DNA from: a candidate division KSB1 bacterium
GTDB taxonomy: Bacteria; Zhuqueibacterota; JdFR-76; DREG01
Reading direction: 5' to 3'
NCBI GenBank assembly: GCA_022566355.1
Contig: JADFJB010000045.1
Coordinates: 1-32,839 of the forward strand
Length of the DNA stretch: 32,839 nt
Of the stretch, positions 11,654 to 27,236 are shown piece by piece. Every line of letters starts with the position of its first letter. Within the stretch, counting starts at the first letter, position 1. Under the pieces are notes generated by a model. It saw nothing but the letters and a program-made list of their open reading frames with translations. It had not been told where the DNA came from and searched no databases. The position numbers and the translations under genes are program-made.

Positions 11654-14095
11654 TCAAAGAAATCGAACAATGACAATCGTGATGTCATCTGTCTGTTGAG
11701 AGTTAGCTTGAAAATTTTTCAGATCATTAAGGAGTAAGTCTTTTAATTCACCGGCTGAACTAAACATTCCATTTTCAACGATATCTTGTAATCTCTCCTC
11801 TCCATAAAGTTCGTGGTTTTGATTCATTGCTTCGGTCAATCCATCGCTAAAGAGTATAAAATAATCGCCTTTATGTAATTTAGTTTGGCGCTCTTCAATG
11901 GATTCATCAAAAATGTTTCCTTCTTCAAGACCTAAACCGATGCCATTGCCAGTCAGCCATTCTGTTGTGTTTTTCCTTTTTATGAGTGCCGGTGAATGTC
12001 CTGCCCGGCAAAAAGTGATTTTATTGAGTTTGGTATCAACCTTAGCCAGGGCCATTGTGATGAAGGATTTAGAGTCCAGGAAGTTGTAAATCCTGCGATT
12101 TACATCCATCAGAAGTTTTTTGGGACTGCTATGAATTTCGGCGCCCATCTGGATCATCCCTTGCACTTTTGACATATAAATAGCCGCCGGCATACCTTTT
12201 CCGGAAACATCTGCAACGAGAAAGAGTAAACGATTTTTTGGTAAAGGAATATAGTCATAGTAATCTCCGCCAACTATACTTGAAGGTAAAGAAATTCCGG
12301 TAATTTCAAGTCCCGGAATATTCGGATCTTCTTTTGGAAGCAATCCTTCCTGGATATTACGAGCCATCACGAGTTCATTCTCAAATGCTTGTTTTCGTAA
12401 ATCTTCCTGATGCAGTCGCGAATTCACAAGAGCGATTGCGGCATTTCCTGCCACTGTTTGCAGCAGATCCAAATCTTCCATACTATAAACCTGACCGGAA
12501 GCTTTTGGCCCAAGTCCGATTAAACCTATCATAGCATCCTGGTAAAACATTGGGACAGACAATACAATTCCAGCTTTCTCAATTTTTACTTTCTCGGAAA
12601 GTGAGAGGTTATTGTAACTTGCATCTTCTTCTATTTTATAAAACAGACAACAAGATTTCTCTTTTTTGATAAGCTCAATAAGGCTGTTACTTCCATCTTT
12701 CCAATTAATTCTGGAGCTCTTTATTCCTTTTGTTTTGAATCGAAGCACATATTGATTGGATTCTTGATCATACAAATTGACCAAAACATTCGTAACCTTC
12801 ATGGCATCGGATATCGTATCTGCTATATGTTTTAAAATGCCCGGCATATCAGTAAAACCCGGCAGATCCTGGCTCAGTTTAAGCAAGGTTTTTTGATATT
12901 GGTATTTGTTTCTATAAAACTGCCGATCGACCAGGTTTTGGATGGCGTTTCTAACCGGTTGAAAAGCAATTGCAACAATTACCAGAAAAATGATATTTGA
13001 AGTTTGGCCGGCAAAACCGAGATTATTTGCCAAATATTCACCCAATTCCATCACAATAAGAAAATAGAGAAGTACAAAAAAACTGGTGAGCATACTGTAA
13101 ACCAGGCTTTTTTTAACAATGATTTCCACATCCATTAGACCATATCGCATGATTGAGTATCCAAACGATATTGGCACAAATCCCATCAATCCAAAAACAA
13201 AAGCGACTGCAGTTTCACCTAAGACATTCACTACGAAATCTGGGAAATAGGCGAAAATGCCTAATGGCATGAATCCTAAAAACATGCCAAATTGTATCAC
13301 TCGAATCGATTTTCGTTCGTGGGGATTGGTGATTTTATGTGAGTTTGAGCCAAGTAAACCGAATGCAGCGAAGAAATAACATCCAATAATTATATTTTCC
13401 AAAATGGATTGTTTGTTGATGAATAGGACATACGTAAATGCCAAAATCGAGGGTAGATAAAAGAGAAAAACAGCCTTGGGATACTTATGTAATAAAGAGA
13501 TTCGTTTTGGAAAATTCATAAAAAAGTGAACCATGGAAGGCCCCCAAAGAATCATACCCGCTGTATGGATTGTAATAATTACATCATGAAATGGTTGATT
13601 GATAGATCTTGAACTGAAGACGAGCATGATGAAAAAGGTCGCTGAGAAAAAATAGAAAAGTCTTGCTGTGCGCATTTCCGGTTTTTTGATAACCACAACA
13701 AAACCAACCAAAAGAAACAACATACCAACCAGATAAAAAAGTACAGGCATTAATCTATTTCGTTGTGCCAATGTAACTACAACGTCAACTTCTTCGCTGC
13801 CTCTACGAATTTTGAATGCTAGCTTGTCGCCAGGTTGGTGTTTATTCCTCCAAGTCAAAAATTGATTGCCATCAAAACCCAGCAGAACATCGTTTACTTT
13901 AATTCCTGCCAGGTCAGCAGCTCCTCCCTCTGTTATATATGTAACTAGAATTTCACCGGTTTCGTCATTTTCCTGCAATCTGAATTCGACTAAAACCTGG
14001 GGATCAAAATGGATCCGGTGTAAAAAATTTGAGGTTGCGGCAATTACTAATAGTATTGTGATCGCGGAGTATAGTATTTTTAACTTGTTACGCAT
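11654..14095 (-). CDS. membrane PDZ-GAF-SpoIIE (RsbU-like) serine phosphatase
   Basis: An 813-aa signalling phosphatase and the last gene of the minus-strand operon. TM1 (about 6-22) is followed by an extracytoplasmic PDZ domain (about 33-110; GGAADLAGIKVNDVLLGFDG). Several membrane helices span about 115-378, then a linker DRQFYRNKYQYQ (390-401), a GAF-like domain (about 405-560), a short coiled coil and a PP2C/SpoIIE domain (575-813). Metal-binding residues are visible in GGDYYDY (609-615), VADVSGKG (627-634), FSDGLTEA (749-756) and DDITIV (803-808), so it should be active. Such enzymes dephosphorylate anti-sigma-factor antagonists in partner-switching pathways. No antagonist or anti-sigma kinase is in the window. 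The PDZ between membrane segments suggests periplasmic sensing of unfolded or C-terminal peptides. Confidence 0.9.
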   Translation of the reverse strand: MRNKLKILYSAITILLVIAATSNFLHRIHFDPQVLVEFRLQENDETGEILVTYITEGGAADLAGIKVNDVLLGFDGNQFLTWRNKHQPGDKLAFKIRRGSEEVDVVVTLAQRNRLMPVLFYLVGMLFLLVGFVVVIKKPEMRTARLFYFFSATFFIMLVFSSRSINQPFHDVIITIHTAGMILWGPSMVHFFMNFPKRISLLHKYPKAVFLFYLPSILAFTYVLFINKQSILENIIIGCYFFAAFGLLGSNSHKITNPHERKSIRVIQFGMFLGFMPLGIFAYFPDFVVNVLGETAVAFVFGLMGFVPISFGYSIMRYGLMDVEIIVKKSLVYSMLTSFFVLLYFLIVMELGEYLANNLGFAGQTSNIIFLVIVAIAFQPVRNAIQNLVDRQFYRNKYQYQKTLLKLSQDLPGFTDMPGILKHIADTISDAMKVTNVLVNLYDQESNQYVLRFKTKGIKSSRINWKDGSNSLIELIKKEKSCCLFYKIEEDASYNNLSLSEKVKIEKAGIVLSVPMFYQDAMIGLIGLGPKASGQVYSMEDLDLLQTVAGNAAIALVNSRLHQEDLRKQAFENELVMARNIQEGLLPKEDPNIPGLEITGISLPSSIVGGDYYDYIPLPKNRLLFLVADVSGKGMPAAIYMSKVQGMIQMGAEIHSSPKKLLMDVNRRIYNFLDSKSFITMALAKVDTKLNKITFCRAGHSPALIKRKNTTEWLTGNGIGLGLEEGNIFDESIEERQTKLHKGDYFILFSDGLTEAMNQNHELYGEERLQDIVENGMFSSAGELKDLLLNDLKNFQANSQQTDDITIVIVRFL

Positions 14096-14134: not shown

Positions 14135-15496
14135 TTATTGGTTAATGAGTTCTTTGACTCCCAATCGATCCATCATTGAATACAGTTTTCTTCTTGTAAT
14201 TCCAAGTAAATTTGCAGCTTTGCTTTTATTCCCTTGTGACTTGGTTATGGCTTGATAGATTAACTCCCGTTCATGTTCATCGAGGTTAATTCCTTTATCA
14301 GGAAGTTCAGAAAAACCTTTTACTGGTTTTTGTGAATGAATGTATAGTGGAAAATGTTCTTTAGATATGGATTGGTCACCACATAAGATTGTCGCTCTTT
14401 CAATGGCATTTTCTAATTCACGCACATTCCCCGGCCAATCATAATTTATGAGAGATTCAAGGGCTGTTGGTTCTATGGTTATAGCTTTGTCTTTGGAAAA
14501 GTTTTTAATAAAGTGATCCACGAGTTCCGGTAAGTCTTCACGTCGCTCTCTAAGAGGCGGTAAAAAAATAGGGAAAACATTTATGCGGTAATATAAATCT
14601 TCCCGAAAACTACCTTCTTTTAAGGCGTCTTCTAAGTTCCGATGGGTAGCTGCTAAAATTCTTGCTTCTAATGAAATTGATTCATTTGCTCCCAACCGTT
14701 CAAATTTTTTGGTTTGAAGAACTCGAAGTAATTTAACCTGGAGACTTGGAGATAGGTCGCCGATTTCGTCCAAAAAAATAATTCCTTTCCCGGCAATTTC
14801 AAATTTTCCTTTTTTAATCCGATCTGCCCCGGTAAATGCACCCTTTTCATGGCCAAATAGCTCGCTTTCCAACAAGTTTTCCGGGATTGCACCACAATTC
14901 ACAGCTATAAATGGTTCATCGGCTCGCGAACTGTTTTGGTGAATTGCCAGGGCAATCAGTTCTTTGCCCGTACCACTTTCGCCTCGAATCAAAATTGTTG
15001 TGTCACCGTTACAAATTTTTTCAACAAGTTTAAAAACATCTTGCATTTTCCCTGAGTTACCGGTAATATTATCAAAATTATAGCGTGTTTTTAGTTGCCG
15101 GCGTAGATCCCGGTTTTCTGTCACTAAACGTTTATTATCCAATAACCTATCCACTCTTAACCGTAATTCCTCCATATCAAATGGCTTGATTAAATAATCG
15201 TACGCTCCGCGTTTCATAGCTTCTACAGCGGTTTGAGCAGTAGCAAAGGCAGTCATCAGAATCACATCTGTGTCCCGGGAGTTTTCTTTAATTTTATCAA
15301 GCAGTTCCAGACCCGTAATTTTCGGCATTTTGAGATCCGTGATAACCAGGTCGTAGTGCTTCGTTTGGAATTGTTTAAACCCTTGCTCACCATCGAAGGC
15401 AACATCAACTTCAACCTGATCCGATTCAAGGCAGGCTTTCAGTATTTCACACATTCTTTCTTCGTTATCAATTACTAGAATTGATCTGGAATCCAT
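14135..15496 (-). CDS. NtrC-family sigma-54-dependent response regulator
   Basis: A 453-aa bacterial enhancer-binding protein. The receiver domain (1-120) has D10/E12 with N11 between, phospho-acceptor D54 in VITDLKMP, T82 and K104. The AAA+ domain (about 144-380) has Walker A GESGTGKE at 172-179, the sigma-54-contacting loop GAFTGAD at 219-225 and Walker B FLDEIG at 241-246, all intact. A Fis-type helix-turn-helix closes the protein (NKSKAANLLGITRRKLYSMM). It should remodel sigma-54 RNA polymerase when phosphorylated by the kinase encoded immediately upstream (14-bp gap). A good AAGGAAA ribosome site precedes the ATG. A sigma-54 promoter is visible at 26486-26501; whether it is a target is unproven. 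Confidence 0.95.
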   Translation of the reverse strand: MDSRSILVIDNEERMCEILKACLESDQVEVDVAFDGEQGFKQFQTKHYDLVITDLKMPKITGLELLDKIKENSRDTDVILMTAFATAQTAVEAMKRGAYDYLIKPFDMEELRLRVDRLLDNKRLVTENRDLRRQLKTRYNFDNITGNSGKMQDVFKLVEKICNGDTTILIRGESGTGKELIALAIHQNSSRADEPFIAVNCGAIPENLLESELFGHEKGAFTGADRIKKGKFEIAGKGIIFLDEIGDLSPSLQVKLLRVLQTKKFERLGANESISLEARILAATHRNLEDALKEGSFREDLYYRINVFPIFLPPLRERREDLPELVDHFIKNFSKDKAITIEPTALESLINYDWPGNVRELENAIERATILCGDQSISKEHFPLYIHSQKPVKGFSELPDKGINLDEHERELIYQAITKSQGNKSKAANLLGITRRKLYSMMDRLGVKELINQ

Positions 15497-15510
15497 ATAT
15501 GATTTCCTTT

Positions 15511-16914
15511 TTAATGATTTTCTACAGGTAGATTAATTGTGATGGTTGTACCATTACCTGGTTGACTTTCAACTTCAATATTACCGCCATGACCCTCTAT
15601 GATTTTTTTTGATACCGGCAGCCCTAAACCGCTTCCGGAGCTTTTCGTGGTATAGAAGGGTTCGAAAATAGCATCTGGATTTTCAATACCCGAACCGGAA
15701 TCAATAATCTGAACCTGGTAAAAATTCTTATGTTTATTGCTTAAGTAATTTGTTTTAATAACAATGTCACCTTCGGACTCTATTGATTGCATTGAATTTC
15801 GAAATAAATTGATCAAAACCTGCTGCATGGCGTCGAGATCAAACGGGAATGGTTCAATTGCTTTTGCATCAAAGTGAAATTTGACCTTACTTTGTTCGTT
15901 ATTGAGTTTCATCTTTTCGATTGTAGCTTCAATCAATTTATTTAAATCATTTTTTTCAAAATTTAATTTAGATTCTTTACCTAGAAGTAAAAAATCATTT
16001 ACCAATTTATTGAGCCGATTTACTTCATCGGGAATATACTGAAACAGTTGGTCCGGCTTCTTTTCATTTTGATACCTGGACTTAAGCACATCGGCAGTCC
16101 CGCGAATAATACCCAACGGATTACGGATTTCGTGAGCAAGCACAGCCGACATCTGGCCCATCATGGCTAGTCGTTCCGATTTTGATAGGGATTCTTGAGT
16201 GCGAATTAACAACCTCAATGCATAAAGGATGAAAGTGACAAACAGAATAAAAATTCCGATACTTACAGTCGCAGTAACAAAGAATGTGTTTTTATACTGT
16301 TCCACTAAATCAAAAAAATAGGCATTGGCCTCGGTTACCAGAATACCCATCGTTTGCCCGGTTAAATTGTGTACTGGTGCATATGCGTTCATGAATCGTT
16401 GATCATTTAAAATGTGAATAGGACTTGCAACCGGAATACCGGACCAAGCTTGTTTAATAGTGGTAGAATCCTCTTTTAAATAGGCATGTGATATGTCAAA
16501 TTCAAAATCTGAATAACTATCAACAATGGTAGTATATTTTGCATCGATAATAAACAAGCCTTCCAATTGATGGGTTTTCTTAATGCTCATTAATTGATCT
16601 TGAATCAGAAGAAGTGTGATTTGATTTTCTTGCCCGAATTCTAAGGATAGTAGCCCTTCATCCTGTAAATTTTTTTCAATTAGATTTGCTGCTAATATCG
16701 CAACTGATTTCAAACGAAGCTCTTGCTCGGACTCAAGTTGCGCTCGCATTTGATTAAGTAAAAAGAAATTGCCTAAATTAAAGATGATCAATAGAACCAG
16801 AAATCCTCCGATGATCATGTAAACTGCAAGTCGTCTCCGTTTTATGATCGATTGAAGCTTCTGAGACCAGGACGCTTGTAATTCCAAATCCTGCTGTATA
16901 GGTTTATTTTTCAT
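15511..16914 (-). CDS. membrane sensor histidine kinase (NtrB-like), partner of the sigma-54 regulator
   Basis: A 467-aa kinase using the ATG at 16914. That start has a GAGGGA ribosome site and overlaps the end of the NYN gene by 11 bp. The frame is open to 16941, but those nine residues lie inside the upstream gene. TM1 is at about 29-53, followed by a ~155-residue extracytoplasmic sensor region (single-Cache/PAS-like, inferred) and TM2 at about 209-235. HisKA follows with the phospho-acceptor H261 in AHEIRNPLG. The HATPase_c has the N box (LINLFRNSMQS), G1 (DSGSGI) and G2 (SSGSGLGL). No HAMP domain is obvious. It should autophosphorylate and transfer to D54 of the downstream regulator. The ligand is unknown. 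Confidence 0.93.
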   Translation of the reverse strand: MKNKPIQQDLELQASWSQKLQSIIKRRRLAVYMIIGGFLVLLIIFNLGNFFLLNQMRAQLESEQELRLKSVAILAANLIEKNLQDEGLLSLEFGQENQITLLLIQDQLMSIKKTHQLEGLFIIDAKYTTIVDSYSDFEFDISHAYLKEDSTTIKQAWSGIPVASPIHILNDQRFMNAYAPVHNLTGQTMGILVTEANAYFFDLVEQYKNTFFVTATVSIGIFILFVTFILYALRLLIRTQESLSKSERLAMMGQMSAVLAHEIRNPLGIIRGTADVLKSRYQNEKKPDQLFQYIPDEVNRLNKLVNDFLLLGKESKLNFEKNDLNKLIEATIEKMKLNNEQSKVKFHFDAKAIEPFPFDLDAMQQVLINLFRNSMQSIESEGDIVIKTNYLSNKHKNFYQVQIIDSGSGIENPDAIFEPFYTTKSSGSGLGLPVSKKIIEGHGGNIEVESQPGNGTTITINLPVENH

Positions 16915-17395
16915 TTCCCTCAGTATTATTGAAAATGTCAACCCAGTTTTGTAATTCGTGTTGACTCATTTCCTCTTGCAAATTAGGCGAGGGGCTACTT
17001 TTTTTTGAATCAAGATATTTGCTGTAAAACTCCTCCGAGCGTATTGCCTGGGCTTTTGCACTTTTAGCGTATTGGTAAACAGAACTGTCAGAAGAGACCA
17101 CAAGTAAATTCTTAGGATTTTTGGATTTGTCCACAAATTGTTTGATAACCGTATCGGCAATTTGAGGTTTGATTGAATAAATAACGTGGATCTTATTAAT
17201 CGATTGATGGCTTGGTTGCCCAACTCGATCGCCATCAAACACCAAACGAATACTTATATTCTTCCGGGATATTAATCCGGTTAGTTTATTGATTAACTCA
17301 ATTCTGGCATGTTGAATATCAATTTTCAAAAACTCACGCAATTCTTTGACTCGGTGAATCAAATTGTATCCGTCTATAATGATGCTTGGTTTCAT
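16904..17395 (-). CDS. NYN-domain (YacP-like) ribonuclease
   Basis: A 163-aa PIN-like NYN domain of the YacP type. The nuclease acidic residues appear in IIDGYNLIH (6-14) and LVFDGD (51-56). Also visible are the ADTVIKQFV helix (about 80-88) and LVVSSDSSV (98-106). The YacP/Rae1 family includes endoribonucleases acting on mRNA, in Bacillus at the ribosome. A charged tail of about 30 residues follows. It is the first gene of a tight operon and overlaps the kinase start (ATGAAAAATAA). No strong ribosome site precedes its ATG. An RNase ahead of a two-component system may be chance co-transcription or real functional coupling. Confidence 0.85.
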   Translation of the reverse strand: MKPSIIIDGYNLIHRVKELREFLKIDIQHARIELINKLTGLISRKNISIRLVFDGDRVGQPSHQSINKIHVIYSIKPQIADTVIKQFVDKSKNPKNLLVVSSDSSVYQYAKSAKAQAIRSEEFYSKYLDSKKSSPSPNLQEEMSQHELQNWVDIFNNTEGNEK

Positions 17396-19362: not shown

Positions 19363-19569
19363 ATGACACTTAAATCAGTTAGAAAGTTAAAATCTGCAAC
19401 CATTTTTGTTAAGAGTATTTTTTTTCCATCCGATTTAACGAATAGTTATTCACAATATTCAAATATCTATCTTGAAAGAATCATTCATTATAAATCTACA
19501 AGATTGGCTTTCATATCTGTAAATCAAACTCTTAATTTTTATATTTCATTAAACAAGGAGGTATCATGA
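19363..19569 (+). CDS. 68-codon ORF coupled to the modular surface protein (possible leader peptide)
   Basis: A small ORF with no recognised family. It has a good ribosome site (AGGAG, about 8 bases before ATG), is rich in Ser, Lys, Ile and Tyr, and has no signal peptide or transmembrane helix that I can see. Its final codons carry the AAGGAGG ribosome site of the next gene. Its TGA overlaps the next ATG (ATGA), so the two would be translationally coupled. It lies just after a strong terminator, so it would start the transcript of the surface-protein gene. It may be a regulatory leader or simply a long 5' untranslated region that happens to be open. No homology evidence. Confidence 0.4.
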   Translation: MTLKSVRKLKSATIFVKSIFFPSDLTNSYSQYSNIYLERIIHYKSTRLAFISVNQTLNFYISLNKEVS

Positions 19570-22500
19570 GGCAATTTACTAAATATTTAAACAGTGTCGT
19601 TCTTGCTGTATCCGTATGTCTGGGACTGTTTAATTCGGAAACACCAGCACAGCAACAAACAAATGAAATTTTGGTTATTTCACCGGAAGAAGCGAAAGTG
19701 CCAATCCAGGGAACGGTTCGTTTTCGAGCACAGCTATTTGGAGTTTCAAATTTTACTGCTTTAACTGCCGATCGGATTGATTGGAAAGTAGAGCCTGAAG
19801 ATTTAGGAAGAATAACCGATGATGGCTTTTTTATTGCGGGCAACAAACCCGGTAACGGAGCTATAATCGCGACTGCAATATTATTAAATCGTGAAGTTAA
19901 AGCCAGAGCAAAAATAGTAGTAGGGGAGACCGATGTTGAAGATCGCACCAAACTGGAGTTAATTGTTCAGCCGAAAAAAGCCGCGTTAGGTTTTGGAGAT
20001 TCACTAAGATTCCATGCTAAATTGAGCTATAAGAATAGCGATAAAGTTGTTCCGAATCTACTCGTTAACTGGTTGGTTAAACCGAGGCATATTGGAAAAA
20101 TCAACCAGCGTGGATTATTTGTCGCCGGGAATGATCCGGTTCAGGGCGAAGTGATAGCATATATAGAGTACAATGGAACCAGGATTTTTGGTGGTTCGCA
20201 AGTTGTGGTTGGCAGTCGTCCTAATGCCGCTGCAGCCGGCAGAGTGACAGATGAAAATTCCGGAGAAGGAGTAGAGAATGCAGCAGTTGTGGCTTATCGG
20301 ATAGGCCACGTACGTTGGTCCAGAAGAGTGTTAACTGACCCTGATGGAAATTATTTACTAGAGAAATTGATCCCGGGCAAATATGTACTTTGGGCCAAAG
20401 GTAAAGGATATATCACAGAATATTTTGAGGAAGCTCAAAGCTTTAAAGATGCAACACCAGTGCAGATGGCTGAAAATGACACTGCAAATGGAATTAATTT
20501 TACTATGAATCATGGTGGAGTAATTGCAGGAACGGTTTACAGTAATGTTAACTCATTGCCACTTGCTCATGCGCATGTTAGTGTTTTCGGTAGAAATAGT
20601 TTAGATGTAAATTTAAAACACCATAGTGTAACAGATGAAAATGGGAATTATATAATAGACAACCTGCGTACGGGTGATTATTTGGTTGTAGCTGATAAGC
20701 CAGGTTACCAGCATGAGTTTTTTGATAATGCGGTTAGACCGGATGAAGCGACTGCTGTGCATGTCGAAGTGCCGGATACCACAAATGGAATTGATTTTTC
20801 TCTTTCAATGCATGGCGCCATTTCAGGTCGCGTTATTGTAGATGATTCGACAAACGCCCCCATTAAAGGAGCCATTGTATTTGCCAGGGATTTGAATAAT
20901 TCACGTTCGGATCGTGACAAAAAAGTACGCACAAATGAAAATGGTGAATACTTGTTGGAATTGGATCCTGGCTTTTATTTAATGGGTGTCGAAGCAAAAG
21001 ATTATAATAATGAGTTCTTTGATGATGTTTTCATTCCTGCTCTAGCTACTCCAGTCCAAGTCATAGAAAATGAACATACAGGCGACATCAATTTTGCACT
21101 TCTGCCTTTGAGTACAATGAGTGGTGTAGTAACAGATGGTAATGGCAGTCCAATTGAGAGAGCTTCCGTTTTTGCATATCCAGAAGTCGGCCAGGGGCAT
21201 TCGGTAAAAACCGAAACGAACGAAAACGGGGAATATTTATTAACCGGGTTATATGCCGGCATTTATTTTGTAAAAGCAAACGCTAGAGGATTTCATCCCG
21301 AGTTCTACTTAGAGGCAAAGAGATTAAGCGATGCTACTCCTGTTTCTGTTGGTATAAATGAGCAAATTGGGGATATTGATTTTACTTTAGATGCCGCTTC
21401 TGCAATCGAAGGGATTGTGGTTTCGGAAGATGAAGGAAATCCTCCACTGGCGAGAGCACTGATCATCGCAAAATTGATTGGCGCACCCTTTCAAAGTAAA
21501 GCTTTCTCAAATGATGATGGAAGTTACCGGATTGATAACCTTCCTGCCGGATCTTATTATGTATATGCAATGGCAAGAGGATTTCATCGGGAATTTTTTG
21601 ACAATGCCGTAACTCGTGAAGAAGCTACTGTAGTTGATCTGGATGTGGCAGAAGTCGAAGCCGGTATAGATTTCAGCCTTAAACCTATTCCTGATCACGA
21701 AGGATCTATCAGTGGTTTGGTGACCGCAGATTTAGACAGCTTACCAATCCCAGGCGCAATCGTGGTTGCGGTGGGCGCTCAAAGTGGCCCGCCATTTTTT
21801 GGTGTGACTAGTGCTGATGGACTTTATGAATTAAAGGGTTTACCCAATGGTGATTATTACGTAATGTCTTGGGCCGATGGTTATATTGGCGAATTCTTTG
21901 ATGATGTCCACAATTGGCATAAAGCAACATTGGTGAATGTTGTTTCACCGCATGAGTCATCCAGTATTGATTTTGCCTTGGCCAAAAAACGCAATGGCCC
22001 TTATAGAGTCCGAGGCAAGGTAGTAACACGGCAAAATCAGCCTATTGCCAATGCATTGATATATGCAAGATCTAAGCGTGGAATAGATGGATTTGCAGTT
22101 AGTGATGAAGAAGGTAATTATGAAATCAATGAGATGGCAGCGGGACAAGTTCAGATAATCGCTGCAGTACCCGGATTAAAGCAAAACAACGACAATAATT
22201 TAGCATCGGATGATTCAGTAACCGTTGATTTAAATTCCGGGAATGACAATTATCAAGCAAATATTACGATGGATGGTGATGTCGCAACCGGTGTCGATGC
22301 AATAGATGGCGCGATTCCGGAAACATATGGATTGGATCAAAATTATCCGAATCCATTCAATCCGGAAACTACAATTCAAATACACCTGCCAGTTAGCGGA
22401 GAAGTTACTCTTAAGGTTTATAATTTATTGGGACAGGAAATTGTAACCCTGGCAAACGAGATTCTGGAAGCCGGAAATCATGTGCTAAACTGGAACGGAT

Positions 22501-22613
22501 TGAACAAGTTTCAAACTCAAGTGCCGTCGGGAATCTATTATTATAGAATTCAGGTAAAGAACGGAAAAAATGTCACTTTTGAACAAATTCGAAAAATGAC
22601 TTTACTGAAGTAA
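19566..22613 (+). CDS. modular surface protein: two Ig-like domains, seven carboxypeptidase-regulatory-like modules, type IX sorting tail
   Basis: A 1015-aa secreted protein. The signal peptide is about 1-29 (cleavage near TPAQQ). Two Ig/Big-like domains (about 35-120 and 130-216) each contain a W-x-V-x-P...GxI...GxFxAGN pattern. Seven tandem carboxypeptidase-regulatory-like/SdrD-B-like modules follow: about 224-314, 317-413, 417-512, 517-608, 612-705, 713-805 and 814-902. Six share the ending 'G-[YF]..E[FY]F....ATxVxV......I[DN]F.[LM]'; the seventh lacks the EFFD part. A type IX C-terminal sorting domain starts at LDQNYPNPFNP (about 923). It is probably a long surface-attached rod or adhesin; no enzyme domain is seen. 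An excellent ribosome site (AAGGAGG) precedes its ATG. A hairpin follows the stop. Confidence 0.9.
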   Translation: MRQFTKYLNSVVLAVSVCLGLFNSETPAQQQTNEILVISPEEAKVPIQGTVRFRAQLFGVSNFTALTADRIDWKVEPEDLGRITDDGFFIAGNKPGNGAIIATAILLNREVKARAKIVVGETDVEDRTKLELIVQPKKAALGFGDSLRFHAKLSYKNSDKVVPNLLVNWLVKPRHIGKINQRGLFVAGNDPVQGEVIAYIEYNGTRIFGGSQVVVGSRPNAAAAGRVTDENSGEGVENAAVVAYRIGHVRWSRRVLTDPDGNYLLEKLIPGKYVLWAKGKGYITEYFEEAQSFKDATPVQMAENDTANGINFTMNHGGVIAGTVYSNVNSLPLAHAHVSVFGRNSLDVNLKHHSVTDENGNYIIDNLRTGDYLVVADKPGYQHEFFDNAVRPDEATAVHVEVPDTTNGIDFSLSMHGAISGRVIVDDSTNAPIKGAIVFARDLNNSRSDRDKKVRTNENGEYLLELDPGFYLMGVEAKDYNNEFFDDVFIPALATPVQVIENEHTGDINFALLPLSTMSGVVTDGNGSPIERASVFAYPEVGQGHSVKTETNENGEYLLTGLYAGIYFVKANARGFHPEFYLEAKRLSDATPVSVGINEQIGDIDFTLDAASAIEGIVVSEDEGNPPLARALIIAKLIGAPFQSKAFSNDDGSYRIDNLPAGSYYVYAMARGFHREFFDNAVTREEATVVDLDVAEVEAGIDFSLKPIPDHEGSISGLVTADLDSLPIPGAIVVAVGAQSGPPFFGVTSADGLYELKGLPNGDYYVMSWADGYIGEFFDDVHNWHKATLVNVVSPHESSSIDFALAKKRNGPYRVRGKVVTRQNQPIANALIYARSKRGIDGFAVSDEEGNYEINEMAAGQVQIIAAVPGLKQNNDNNLASDDSVTVDLNSGNDNYQANITMDGDVATGVDAIDGAIPETYGLDQNYPNPFNPETTIQIHLPVSGEVTLKVYNLLGQEIVTLANEILEAGNHVLNWNGLNKFQTQVPSGIYYYRIQVKNGKNVTFEQIRKMTLLK

Positions 22614-26374: not shown

Positions 26375-26484
26375 GTAAACTAATTGTAATAAAGTTGTAA
26401 GCCTTTTAAAAACATTTATTTAATTTAATATTGTATAGTAAGAAGTTACAATAAATAAGTTTTTACTGTTTCAAAATGGTATTT

Positions 26485-26501
26485 TTGGCACACTCATTGC
26501 A
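26485..26501 (+). promoter_or_regulatory. sigma-54 (-24/-12) promoter of the orphan response-regulator gene
   Basis: TTGGCAC-ACTCA-TTGCA matches the sigma-54 consensus TGGCAC-N5-TTGC exactly. GG lies at 26487-26488 and GC at 26499-26500, giving the required GG-N10-GC spacing. The predicted start is near 26511, leaving a ~45-base leader with a good ribosome site before the ATG at 26556. About 230 bases of AT-rich non-coding DNA upstream could accommodate enhancer sites and DNA bending. Confidence 0.85.
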
Positions 26502-26555
26502 ATGATTACAGTAAAACAAAATAAATTACTAAAATTTAACATAAGGTGATGAAAC

Positions 26556-27236
26556 ATGGAAAACGAAAGAATATTAATTGCACTGCCCGAGAATGAGAAT
26601 AAAAATTCTGTAAGCAGAATATTGAGACAAAAAGGGTACGACGTTACCTTTAAGCGTAAAGGGCAAGAAGTATTGAATTACGTTAAAAATGATCTTCCGC
26701 TTGTCATCCTTATGGATTACAATCTGAAAGGTAAAAACGGTTGGGAGGTTAGCAAAGAATTAAAGAGCGACCAACTGACTCAAAATGTTGGTGTCATACT
26801 CCATTGTGAAATCAACGAGGAGAATGAAATAATACATGCATTTGAAATGGGCGCAGACGACGTCATTCATGCGGAAAATTCTGTTCGAGAAATTGTAGCC
26901 AGAGTAGACGCACTTATCAGAAGATTGAAGAATGGGCATAATTGTATCAAAGTTCAAGATCTTGAAATTGACCTGGATGCTCATCGAGTAAAGAAGGATG
27001 GAGAACCAATTGACTTAACTTATATTCAGTTCAAATTGCTCTACTTATTAGCATCACGGCGGGAAAGCATTTTTTCTCGTACTGAAATCCTAGAAAGAGT
27101 TTGGGGCAAAAAAGTATATGTCACGAATCGTACTGTTGACGTTCATATTAAAAGATTAAGAGAAAAGCTAGGCGAAATTCGTTATCCATCTAACTACATC
27201 CAGACGATACATGGCGTGGGATATCGATTTATCTAA
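26556..27236 (+). CDS. OmpR/PhoB-family response regulator with degenerate receiver
   Basis: A 226-aa two-domain regulator. The C-terminal winged helix (about 128-226) is canonical: IDLTYIQFKLLYLLAS, RTEILERVWG, NRTVDVHIKRLREKL and TIHGVGYRFI. The receiver keeps the aspartate D54 (LMDYNLKGKNG) but has lost its usual partners. The acidic pair after strand 1 is replaced (ILIALPENEN instead of 'ILVVDDE'). The strand-4 Thr/Ser is replaced (GVILHCE). The strand-5 'KP' lysine is missing (DVIHAENS). Phosphorylation by a kinase is therefore doubtful, and it may act as an atypical, constitutively active or ligand-controlled receiver. No kinase adjoins it. It is driven by a sigma-54 promoter and closed by a terminator. 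Confidence 0.9.
   Translation: MENERILIALPENENKNSVSRILRQKGYDVTFKRKGQEVLNYVKNDLPLVILMDYNLKGKNGWEVSKELKSDQLTQNVGVILHCEINEENEIIHAFEMGADDVIHAENSVREIVARVDALIRRLKNGHNCIKVQDLEIDLDAHRVKKDGEPIDLTYIQFKLLYLLASRRESIFSRTEILERVWGKKVYVTNRTVDVHIKRLREKLGEIRYPSNYIQTIHGVGYRFI

Follow-up and report, generated by a model that had tools for sequence, protein, structure and literature searches.

An orphan OmpR/PhoB-type regulator of the KSB1-type phylum with a pseudo-receiver and a conserved sigma-54 promoter-like site

The promoter type shared by a family of orphan OmpR/PhoB-type regulators suggests that these proteins are controlled by the timing of their synthesis and not by phosphorylation. The regulator studied here is encoded in a stretch of 32,839 nucleotides from a candidate division KSB1 bacterium (contig JADFJB010000045.1), called the window below. 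We favor the reading, with a probability of roughly 0.6, that it is a phosphorylation-independent transcription factor resembling HP1043 and that its input is sigma-54-dependent synthesis. Among the features of the gene we think that the sigma-54 site, which an earlier sequence-only reading did not mention, matters most.

The window protein has the architecture of the OmpR/PhoB subfamily, a receiver followed by a Trans_reg_C winged helix, according to both Pfam and the predicted fold (Table 1). Response_reg (PF00072) matches residues 12-117 with 50.8 bits and Trans_reg_C (PF00486) matches residues 149-225 with 89.9 bits, both above the cut-off. Because the Response_reg match begins only at profile position 7, it does not cover the first strand, where the acidic pair would lie. 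The best-scoring curated family is the PhoB equivalog NCBIfam TIGR02154, with 184.8 bits, below the cut-off of 296.2. An AlphaFold2 model made with 26 sequences folds the receiver as (beta-alpha)5 and the output domain as a winged helix, with a mean pLDDT of 87.3, while the pTM of 0.57 makes the mutual placement of the two domains uncertain. A Foldseek search with the model found OmpR/PhoB regulators, with MtrA at the top and the atypical regulators HP1043 and CosR lower. A scan of the region for terminators found none, yet a GC-rich hairpin and a T run are visible by eye 3' of the gene.

Table 1. Coordinates of the regulator gene, its upstream features, leader RNA candidates and other genes discussed. 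Positions without a prefix are those of the window; L, locus; C, contig of the window's genome.
Feature	Position	Strand	Basis
OmpR/PhoB-type orphan regulator gene, pseudo-receiver, 226 aa	26556-27236	+	ORF, Pfam, orthologues
Pseudo-receiver domain, residues 1-125	26556-26930	+	alignments, pocket counts, AlphaFold2 (beta-alpha)5 fold
Winged-helix DNA-binding domain, residues 130-226	26943-27233	+	Pfam Trans_reg_C, conservation
Probable ribosome-binding site AAGGTGA	26543-26549	+	by eye in sequence
Sigma-54 (-24/-12) promoter-like site TTGGCACACTCATTGCA	26485-26501	+	perfect match, orthologue conservation, rpoN present
Direct repeat TGTAA-N6-TGTAA, 11-bp period, possible OmpR-type site upstream of promoter	26385-26400	+	weak
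Leader RNA candidate	L065:3850-3948; L070:7832-7931; L073:7840-7938; L037:2262-2360; L077:5451-5546		covarying stem
Leader RNA candidate	L084:7855-7953; L068:2217-2323; L071:7824-7929; L072:7735-7840; L075:7746-7848		covarying stem
Leader RNA candidate	L043:2272-2373; L050:1196-1327; L051:1196-1328; L082:2077-2205		covarying stem
NtrC-type sigma-54 activator and adjoining histidine kinase	14135-16941	-	
Histidine kinase of this pair	15511-16941	-	
PDZ-GAF-SpoIIE phosphatase	11654-14095	-	
Long carboxypeptidase-regulatory-repeat protein with type IX secretion tail	19566-22613	+	
Sigma-54 activator directly downstream of orthologue	L064:1553-3112; L069:8933-10528		PF00158
GlnE-like gene upstream of orthologue	L061:3424-6429; L063:4637-7651	opposite	
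FliM	C4:40004-40567		
RpoN	C5:25056-25532		

The regulator family has so far been found only in the KSB1-type phylum, by a scan of genome contigs that started from short peptide patterns taken from the window protein and may miss relatives outside the phylum. The scan gave 31 loci, 25 of them orthologues with 49-65% identity and the other six distant or partial matches. The source labels of the orthologues are KSB1, Caldithrix and Calditrichaeota MAGs, and also 'Deferribacteres', 'Bacteroidota' and BMS3Bbin03. Exactly one match at E <= 1e-42 is present in each of 49 of the 82 genomes of the window's phylum. The gene occurs in 30 of the 49 most complete genomes, and it is therefore not required by every member of the phylum. 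Two more members (L100 and L101) fall just under this cut, and one genome (G016) has two fragments that resemble a third. Families f5, f18 and f19 gave no match at the same cut.

For comparison, 50 distinct family proteins were set against 33 canonical OmpR-type relatives. Fifteen orthologues that duplicate named loci were not counted again, and ten further duplicates (L157-L166) were left out. The canonical set consists of L086, L087, 30 hand-chosen matches ranked below the family, and L132, a paralogue from the window's own genome; L088-L091 were left out. The scores of the two groups touch, with the family reaching 2.3e-40 and the canonical relatives starting at 1.0e-39, and a query without a pocket could favor receivers without a pocket in this ranking. 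The trees separate the groups. The family forms a clade with a support of 0.916 for the whole protein, 0.892 for the receiver and 0.904 for the DNA-binding domain.

The phosphorylation pocket is degraded throughout the family. In the window copy, alignment with canonical receivers places L10-P11 at the acidic pair, C84 at the strand-4 Thr/Ser position, A106 at the strand-5 Lys position and V103 at the Tyr/Phe switch position, with the phospho-acceptor retained as D54. Since D54 is present, the protein does not belong to the aspartate-less receivers (ALR). The earlier description of the receiver was correct, and its view of an atypical receiver, or pseudo-receiver, joined to a canonical output domain is supported. 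The full pocket is present in all 33 canonical relatives and in none of the 50 family members. No member has both acids, 27 have one and 23 have none. The phospho-acceptor Asp is found in 35 of the 50 and absent from 15, the Thr or Ser in 42, and the Lys in 19; Asp, Lys and at least one acid occur together in 12. L061, L062 and L034, which are among the nearest relatives of the window copy, have LP at the acid pair, and their Asp positions are G, H and D, respectively.

The absence of the full pocket from all 50 members, and the LP and varying Asp position in near relatives, indicate that the change is old and that D54 is not the feature being retained. The receiver's phosphate switch was probably lost long ago, in the ancestor of the family. 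The sequence-only reading had instead proposed a recently diverged switch. This does not hold, as the loss is common to a clade (support 0.89-0.92) that extends across the phylum, and no examined member has both acids. The retained aspartate, which had been used as an argument, carries little weight when the same position is G in L061, H in L062 and something other than Asp in 15 of 50 members. That reading had also named orthologues with a full pocket as the sign of a sequencing error in this copy. There are none among the 50, and ALP occupies this position in three separate assemblies of close relatives, those of L061, L062 and L034. Orthologues with the same changes thus rule out both recent divergence and assembly error.

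The DNA-binding domain is nearly frozen in the family, while the receiver is variable. The median pairwise identity is 81.4% for the DNA-binding domain and 29.5% for the receiver, and the receiver is the lower of the two in all 1225 pairs. The canonical relatives have medians of 41.1% and 49.0%, with the receiver lower in only 63 of 528 pairs. At least 95% conservation is found at 55 of the 97 DNA-binding domain sites in the family, a level that 11 sites attain among the canonical relatives. For the receiver, 75% conservation is attained within the family at just 15 positions, the majority of which are conserved in the canonical relatives as well. Several of the conserved positions lie on or near alpha4-beta5-alpha5, the face that PMC4117788 gives as the dimer interface of the OmpR/PhoB subfamily. 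D101, A115 and R123 are present in 50 of 50 members and E97 in 43; position 102 is acidic (D/E) and position 116 basic (R/K) in 49 each. The exact residues are somewhat relaxed, with D102 in 39 and R116 in 40 of the 50 versus 33 of 33 each in the canonical set. The partner of E97 at position 118 is Asp in the window copy and Lys in 36 members.

The receiver is not decaying, as its dN/dS is 0.03-0.18 in 11 of 12 close orthologue pairs, which points to purifying selection; the synonymous sites of the remaining pair are saturated, and the pairs exclude the window copy, which has no close enough partner. These values and the intact predicted fold agree with the earlier judgment that a pseudogene is unlikely. 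Position 56, two residues past the phospho-acceptor, is a family-specific Asp in 39 of 50 members, Asn in the window copy and Met in 32 of the 33 canonical relatives. The gain of Asp56 may be a hint of a new job for the receiver.

A sigma-54 promoter-like site precedes the gene throughout the family. The pattern YTGGCAYRNNNNTTGCW, which we take to be the sigma-54 -24/-12 pattern, has 13 scored positions and was scored over as much as 400 nt of sequence preceding each of 49 family genes; it was chosen after the upstream sequences had been inspected. Contig ends truncate some loci, and L066, with only 27 nt upstream, was excluded from this count. A score of at least 11 is found in 49 of 49 regions, at least 12 in 38 and 13 in 13, versus 2.3, 0.15 and 0.01 expected by first-order Markov resampling; many of the regions come from related genomes, and the count overstates their independence. 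The regions span all 17 family labels where the gene was found. Within 300 nt, 46 of the 49 genes still have a score of at least 11. The 33 canonical relatives score 10 at most, in upstream lengths of 228-297 nt for 30 of them and 400 nt for three. The form TGGCAY-N5-TTGC agrees with many of the Salmonella sites in PMC3844500. In the window copy, transcription would start at about 26512 and the leader would be about 44 nt long. A weak scan for sigma-70-type sites gave 11 in the region versus 5.5 expected, one of which overlaps the sigma-54 site.

The exact pattern is rare in the window's genome. It occurs eight times in 4.6 Mb, the window site being one of the eight, and a reversed control occurs zero times. 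Another of the perfect sites (L149) precedes FliM/FliN-like genes, of which FliM was confirmed. Others precede an Hsp20-GrpE-DnaJ run (L153, contig C31) and a sigma-54 activator gene (L152, contig C28), with names read from the translations; the remaining four are found near a repeat protein or a small secreted protein, or have no clear ORF beside them. Flagellar regulation was considered and rejected as a general role, as FliM is found in 33 of the 82 genomes and does not track the gene; in family f16 the regulator gene is present in seven of eight genomes and FliM in none. RpoN is encoded in the window's genome. It was found in 76 of the 82 phylum genomes, with and without the regulator gene, and is therefore uninformative on linkage. 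It was not found in four of the 49 carrier genomes (G018, G025, G054 and G074), which are incomplete drafts of 56-91%.

Possible binding sites were sought upstream of the promoters. Autoregulation through the direct repeat was rejected, as the repeat is found only in the window copy (the same as L031) and in 0 of the 49 other upstream regions. Gapped words and EM were used to search for an activator motif upstream of the orthologue promoters. A weak recurrent motif near AATTGTTACA, about 20-150 nt upstream, is perhaps the activator's site. The EM motif, which is AT-rich, scores 145.8 at width 22 versus 88.7-93.1 for shuffles, and 120.3 at width 18 versus 66.8-72.3, but the effort was unequal, with 150 restarts for the real sequences and 60 for the shuffled ones. 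Literature searches found no report joining candidate division KSB1 with sigma-54, and none joining Calditrichota, a transcriptional regulator and sigma. The co-mention of KSB1 and a response regulator that they returned concerns iron genes.

Some orthologues carry a leader RNA candidate between the promoter and the ORF. The element is found at 14 loci, is 96-133 nt long and has a 13-bp closing stem. In the alignment 98.9% of cells pair, versus 32-54% in slid controls, but the loci were picked and trimmed by a visible stem, so the paired percentage is biased upwards; the five pairs that change on both sides are better evidence. A covariance model matched 14 of 81 phylum genomes, once each and always directly upstream of the regulator gene. 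These matches are 13 seed loci and one duplicate (G053). In the 81 genomes this search, whose filters can lose weak matches, revealed neither an additional nor an unlinked copy. Rfam searches with eight of the 14 loci gave five matches, none over the gathering score. The window copy, with its short leader, does not have the element. The leaders of L074, L076 and L052 contain a GC-rich, terminator-like hairpin of the GGGCCTCAGAATGAGGCCC type, perhaps an attenuation device.

The regulator is an orphan with no conserved partner beside it. No kinase gene adjoins it in the window, and among 103 neighboring ORFs (at least 130 aa, within 3 kb, 25 loci) only three match HATPase_c. These are histidine kinases, above the cut-off, 0.8-1 kb upstream of the gene in L065, L070 and L073. 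A conserved operon or partner was looked for and rejected: the widest neighbor cluster, ABC transporters, occurs in only nine of 26 loci. In seven of the 26, one of the next two genes downstream belongs to a rhomboid cluster. A sigma-54 activator lies directly downstream of the orthologue in L064 and L069, or two of the 103 ORFs, and L061 and L063 have a GlnE-like gene upstream on the opposite strand. The window also has an NtrC-type sigma-54 activator with an adjoining histidine kinase, at a distance of about 10 kb from the regulator gene. A PDZ-GAF-SpoIIE phosphatase adjoins this activator, and a long carboxypeptidase-regulatory-repeat protein is encoded elsewhere in the window.

We propose that control of this regulator moved from phosphorylation to synthesis. 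The receiver would have turned into a pseudo-receiver in the family ancestor, and normal phosphorylation would be chemically impossible because the metal-binding acidic pair is missing. The receiver would still fold and would be kept as a dimerization part through alpha4-beta5-alpha5. The protein as made, presumably a constitutive dimer, would then be able to bind DNA at tandem sites by way of the frozen winged helix. Input would have passed to transcription from the conserved sigma-54 site. With such a promoter the gene would be silent until an enhancer-binding protein opens it, and the gate would be tight because the ATPase of the activator is required. The cell would set the amount of the regulator and not its phosphorylation state. 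Enhancer-binding proteins are often themselves phosphorylated response regulators. Constitutive dimers (ChxR, GlnR and HP1043) and control by availability are among the routes that PMC12632262 describes for pseudo-receivers, and its text speaks of sparse evidence on how active regulators of this kind are switched off.

The pseudo-receiver could instead be the true input, responding to a ligand, a partner protein or, for example, a cysteine modification, with the promoter only setting the level. We consider this unlikely. The receiver is under purifying selection despite its lost pocket, the Asp at position 56 is specific to the family, and the structural matches of the window protein, which carries C84 and C130, include RitR, a redox regulator derived from a response regulator. 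However, 48 of 50 members have Ser, Thr or Ala at the position of C84, and C130 is present in one. Few receiver positions are conserved, most of them shared with the canonical relatives, and the window copy itself has Asn at position 56. A linker-Cys redox switch of the RitR kind was rejected, as the Cys is not conserved.

It is improbable that the protein still acts as a conventional response regulator that receives weak phosphorylation from a distant kinase. D54 and the Asp of 35 members would fit, as would the 12 with Asp, Lys and one acid, in which weak phosphorylation might persist in some lineages, and a kinase gene is nearby in three of 25 loci. Yet the window copy lacks both acids and no member has the pair, the Asp is lost in the close relatives L061 and L062, and the window's kinase lies beside the NtrC-type regulator, about 10 kb off. 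A decaying gene or an assembly error would explain the missing pocket residues, but the frame is open, separate assemblies have the same changes, the relatives are under purifying selection, and the frozen DNA-binding domain and the promoter are conserved, so that there is hardly any chance that this is correct. Control by synthesis from a sigma-54 promoter is the reading that we prefer. A wider account, which we offer tentatively and would not bet on at even odds, is that the phylum rewired one regulator. Phosphorylation would have been lost ancestrally, sigma-54 synthesis would be the sole conserved input, the leader RNA would add a second layer in several lineages, the receiver would be a constitutive dimer clamp, and the frozen DNA-binding domain would serve one conserved regulon.

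The family has counterparts among known atypical regulators and may be useful for studying them. In 50 sequences a lost pocket is paired with a single promoter type, which makes control by synthesis directly testable, and the frozen DNA-binding domain with its fast receiver lets one see, as in a natural experiment, which features of a receiver remain necessary once the phosphate input is gone. HP1043 (HsrA) of Helicobacter pylori and CosR of Campylobacter likewise are orphans with the OmpR/PhoB architecture and a degenerate receiver, and both (2hqr; 8uvx and 8uvk) turned up in the sequence and structure searches with the window protein. HP1043 is described as phosphorylation-independent in PMC8345958, as essential in PMC5253667 and as a dimer without phosphate in PMC12632262. 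The window regulator probably works like HP1043, as an orphan OmpR-type protein with a non-working pocket, and we do not claim that it belongs to the same lineage. HP1043 and CosR come from another phylum and are not the closest by sequence, the best score being that of MtrA (2gwr). No report of a sigma-54 promoter was found in the titles and summaries listed for HP1043 and CosR. Chlamydia ChxR and actinobacterial GlnR, which belong to other lineages than the KSB1-type family, are given in PMC12632262 as atypical OmpR/PhoB regulators that dimerize without phosphorylation. According to the same source the Asp helps the GlnR dimer, whereas 15 of the 50 KSB1-type proteins have lost it. PhoB (TIGR02154) has the same two domains, but the window protein differs from it in having a sigma-54 site and in lacking the acidic pair and a linked kinase. 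The window site has the same TGGCAY-N5-TTGC pattern as known sigma-54 (-24/-12) promoters. Unlike in those, a single promoter type accompanies one atypical regulator here throughout a phylum.
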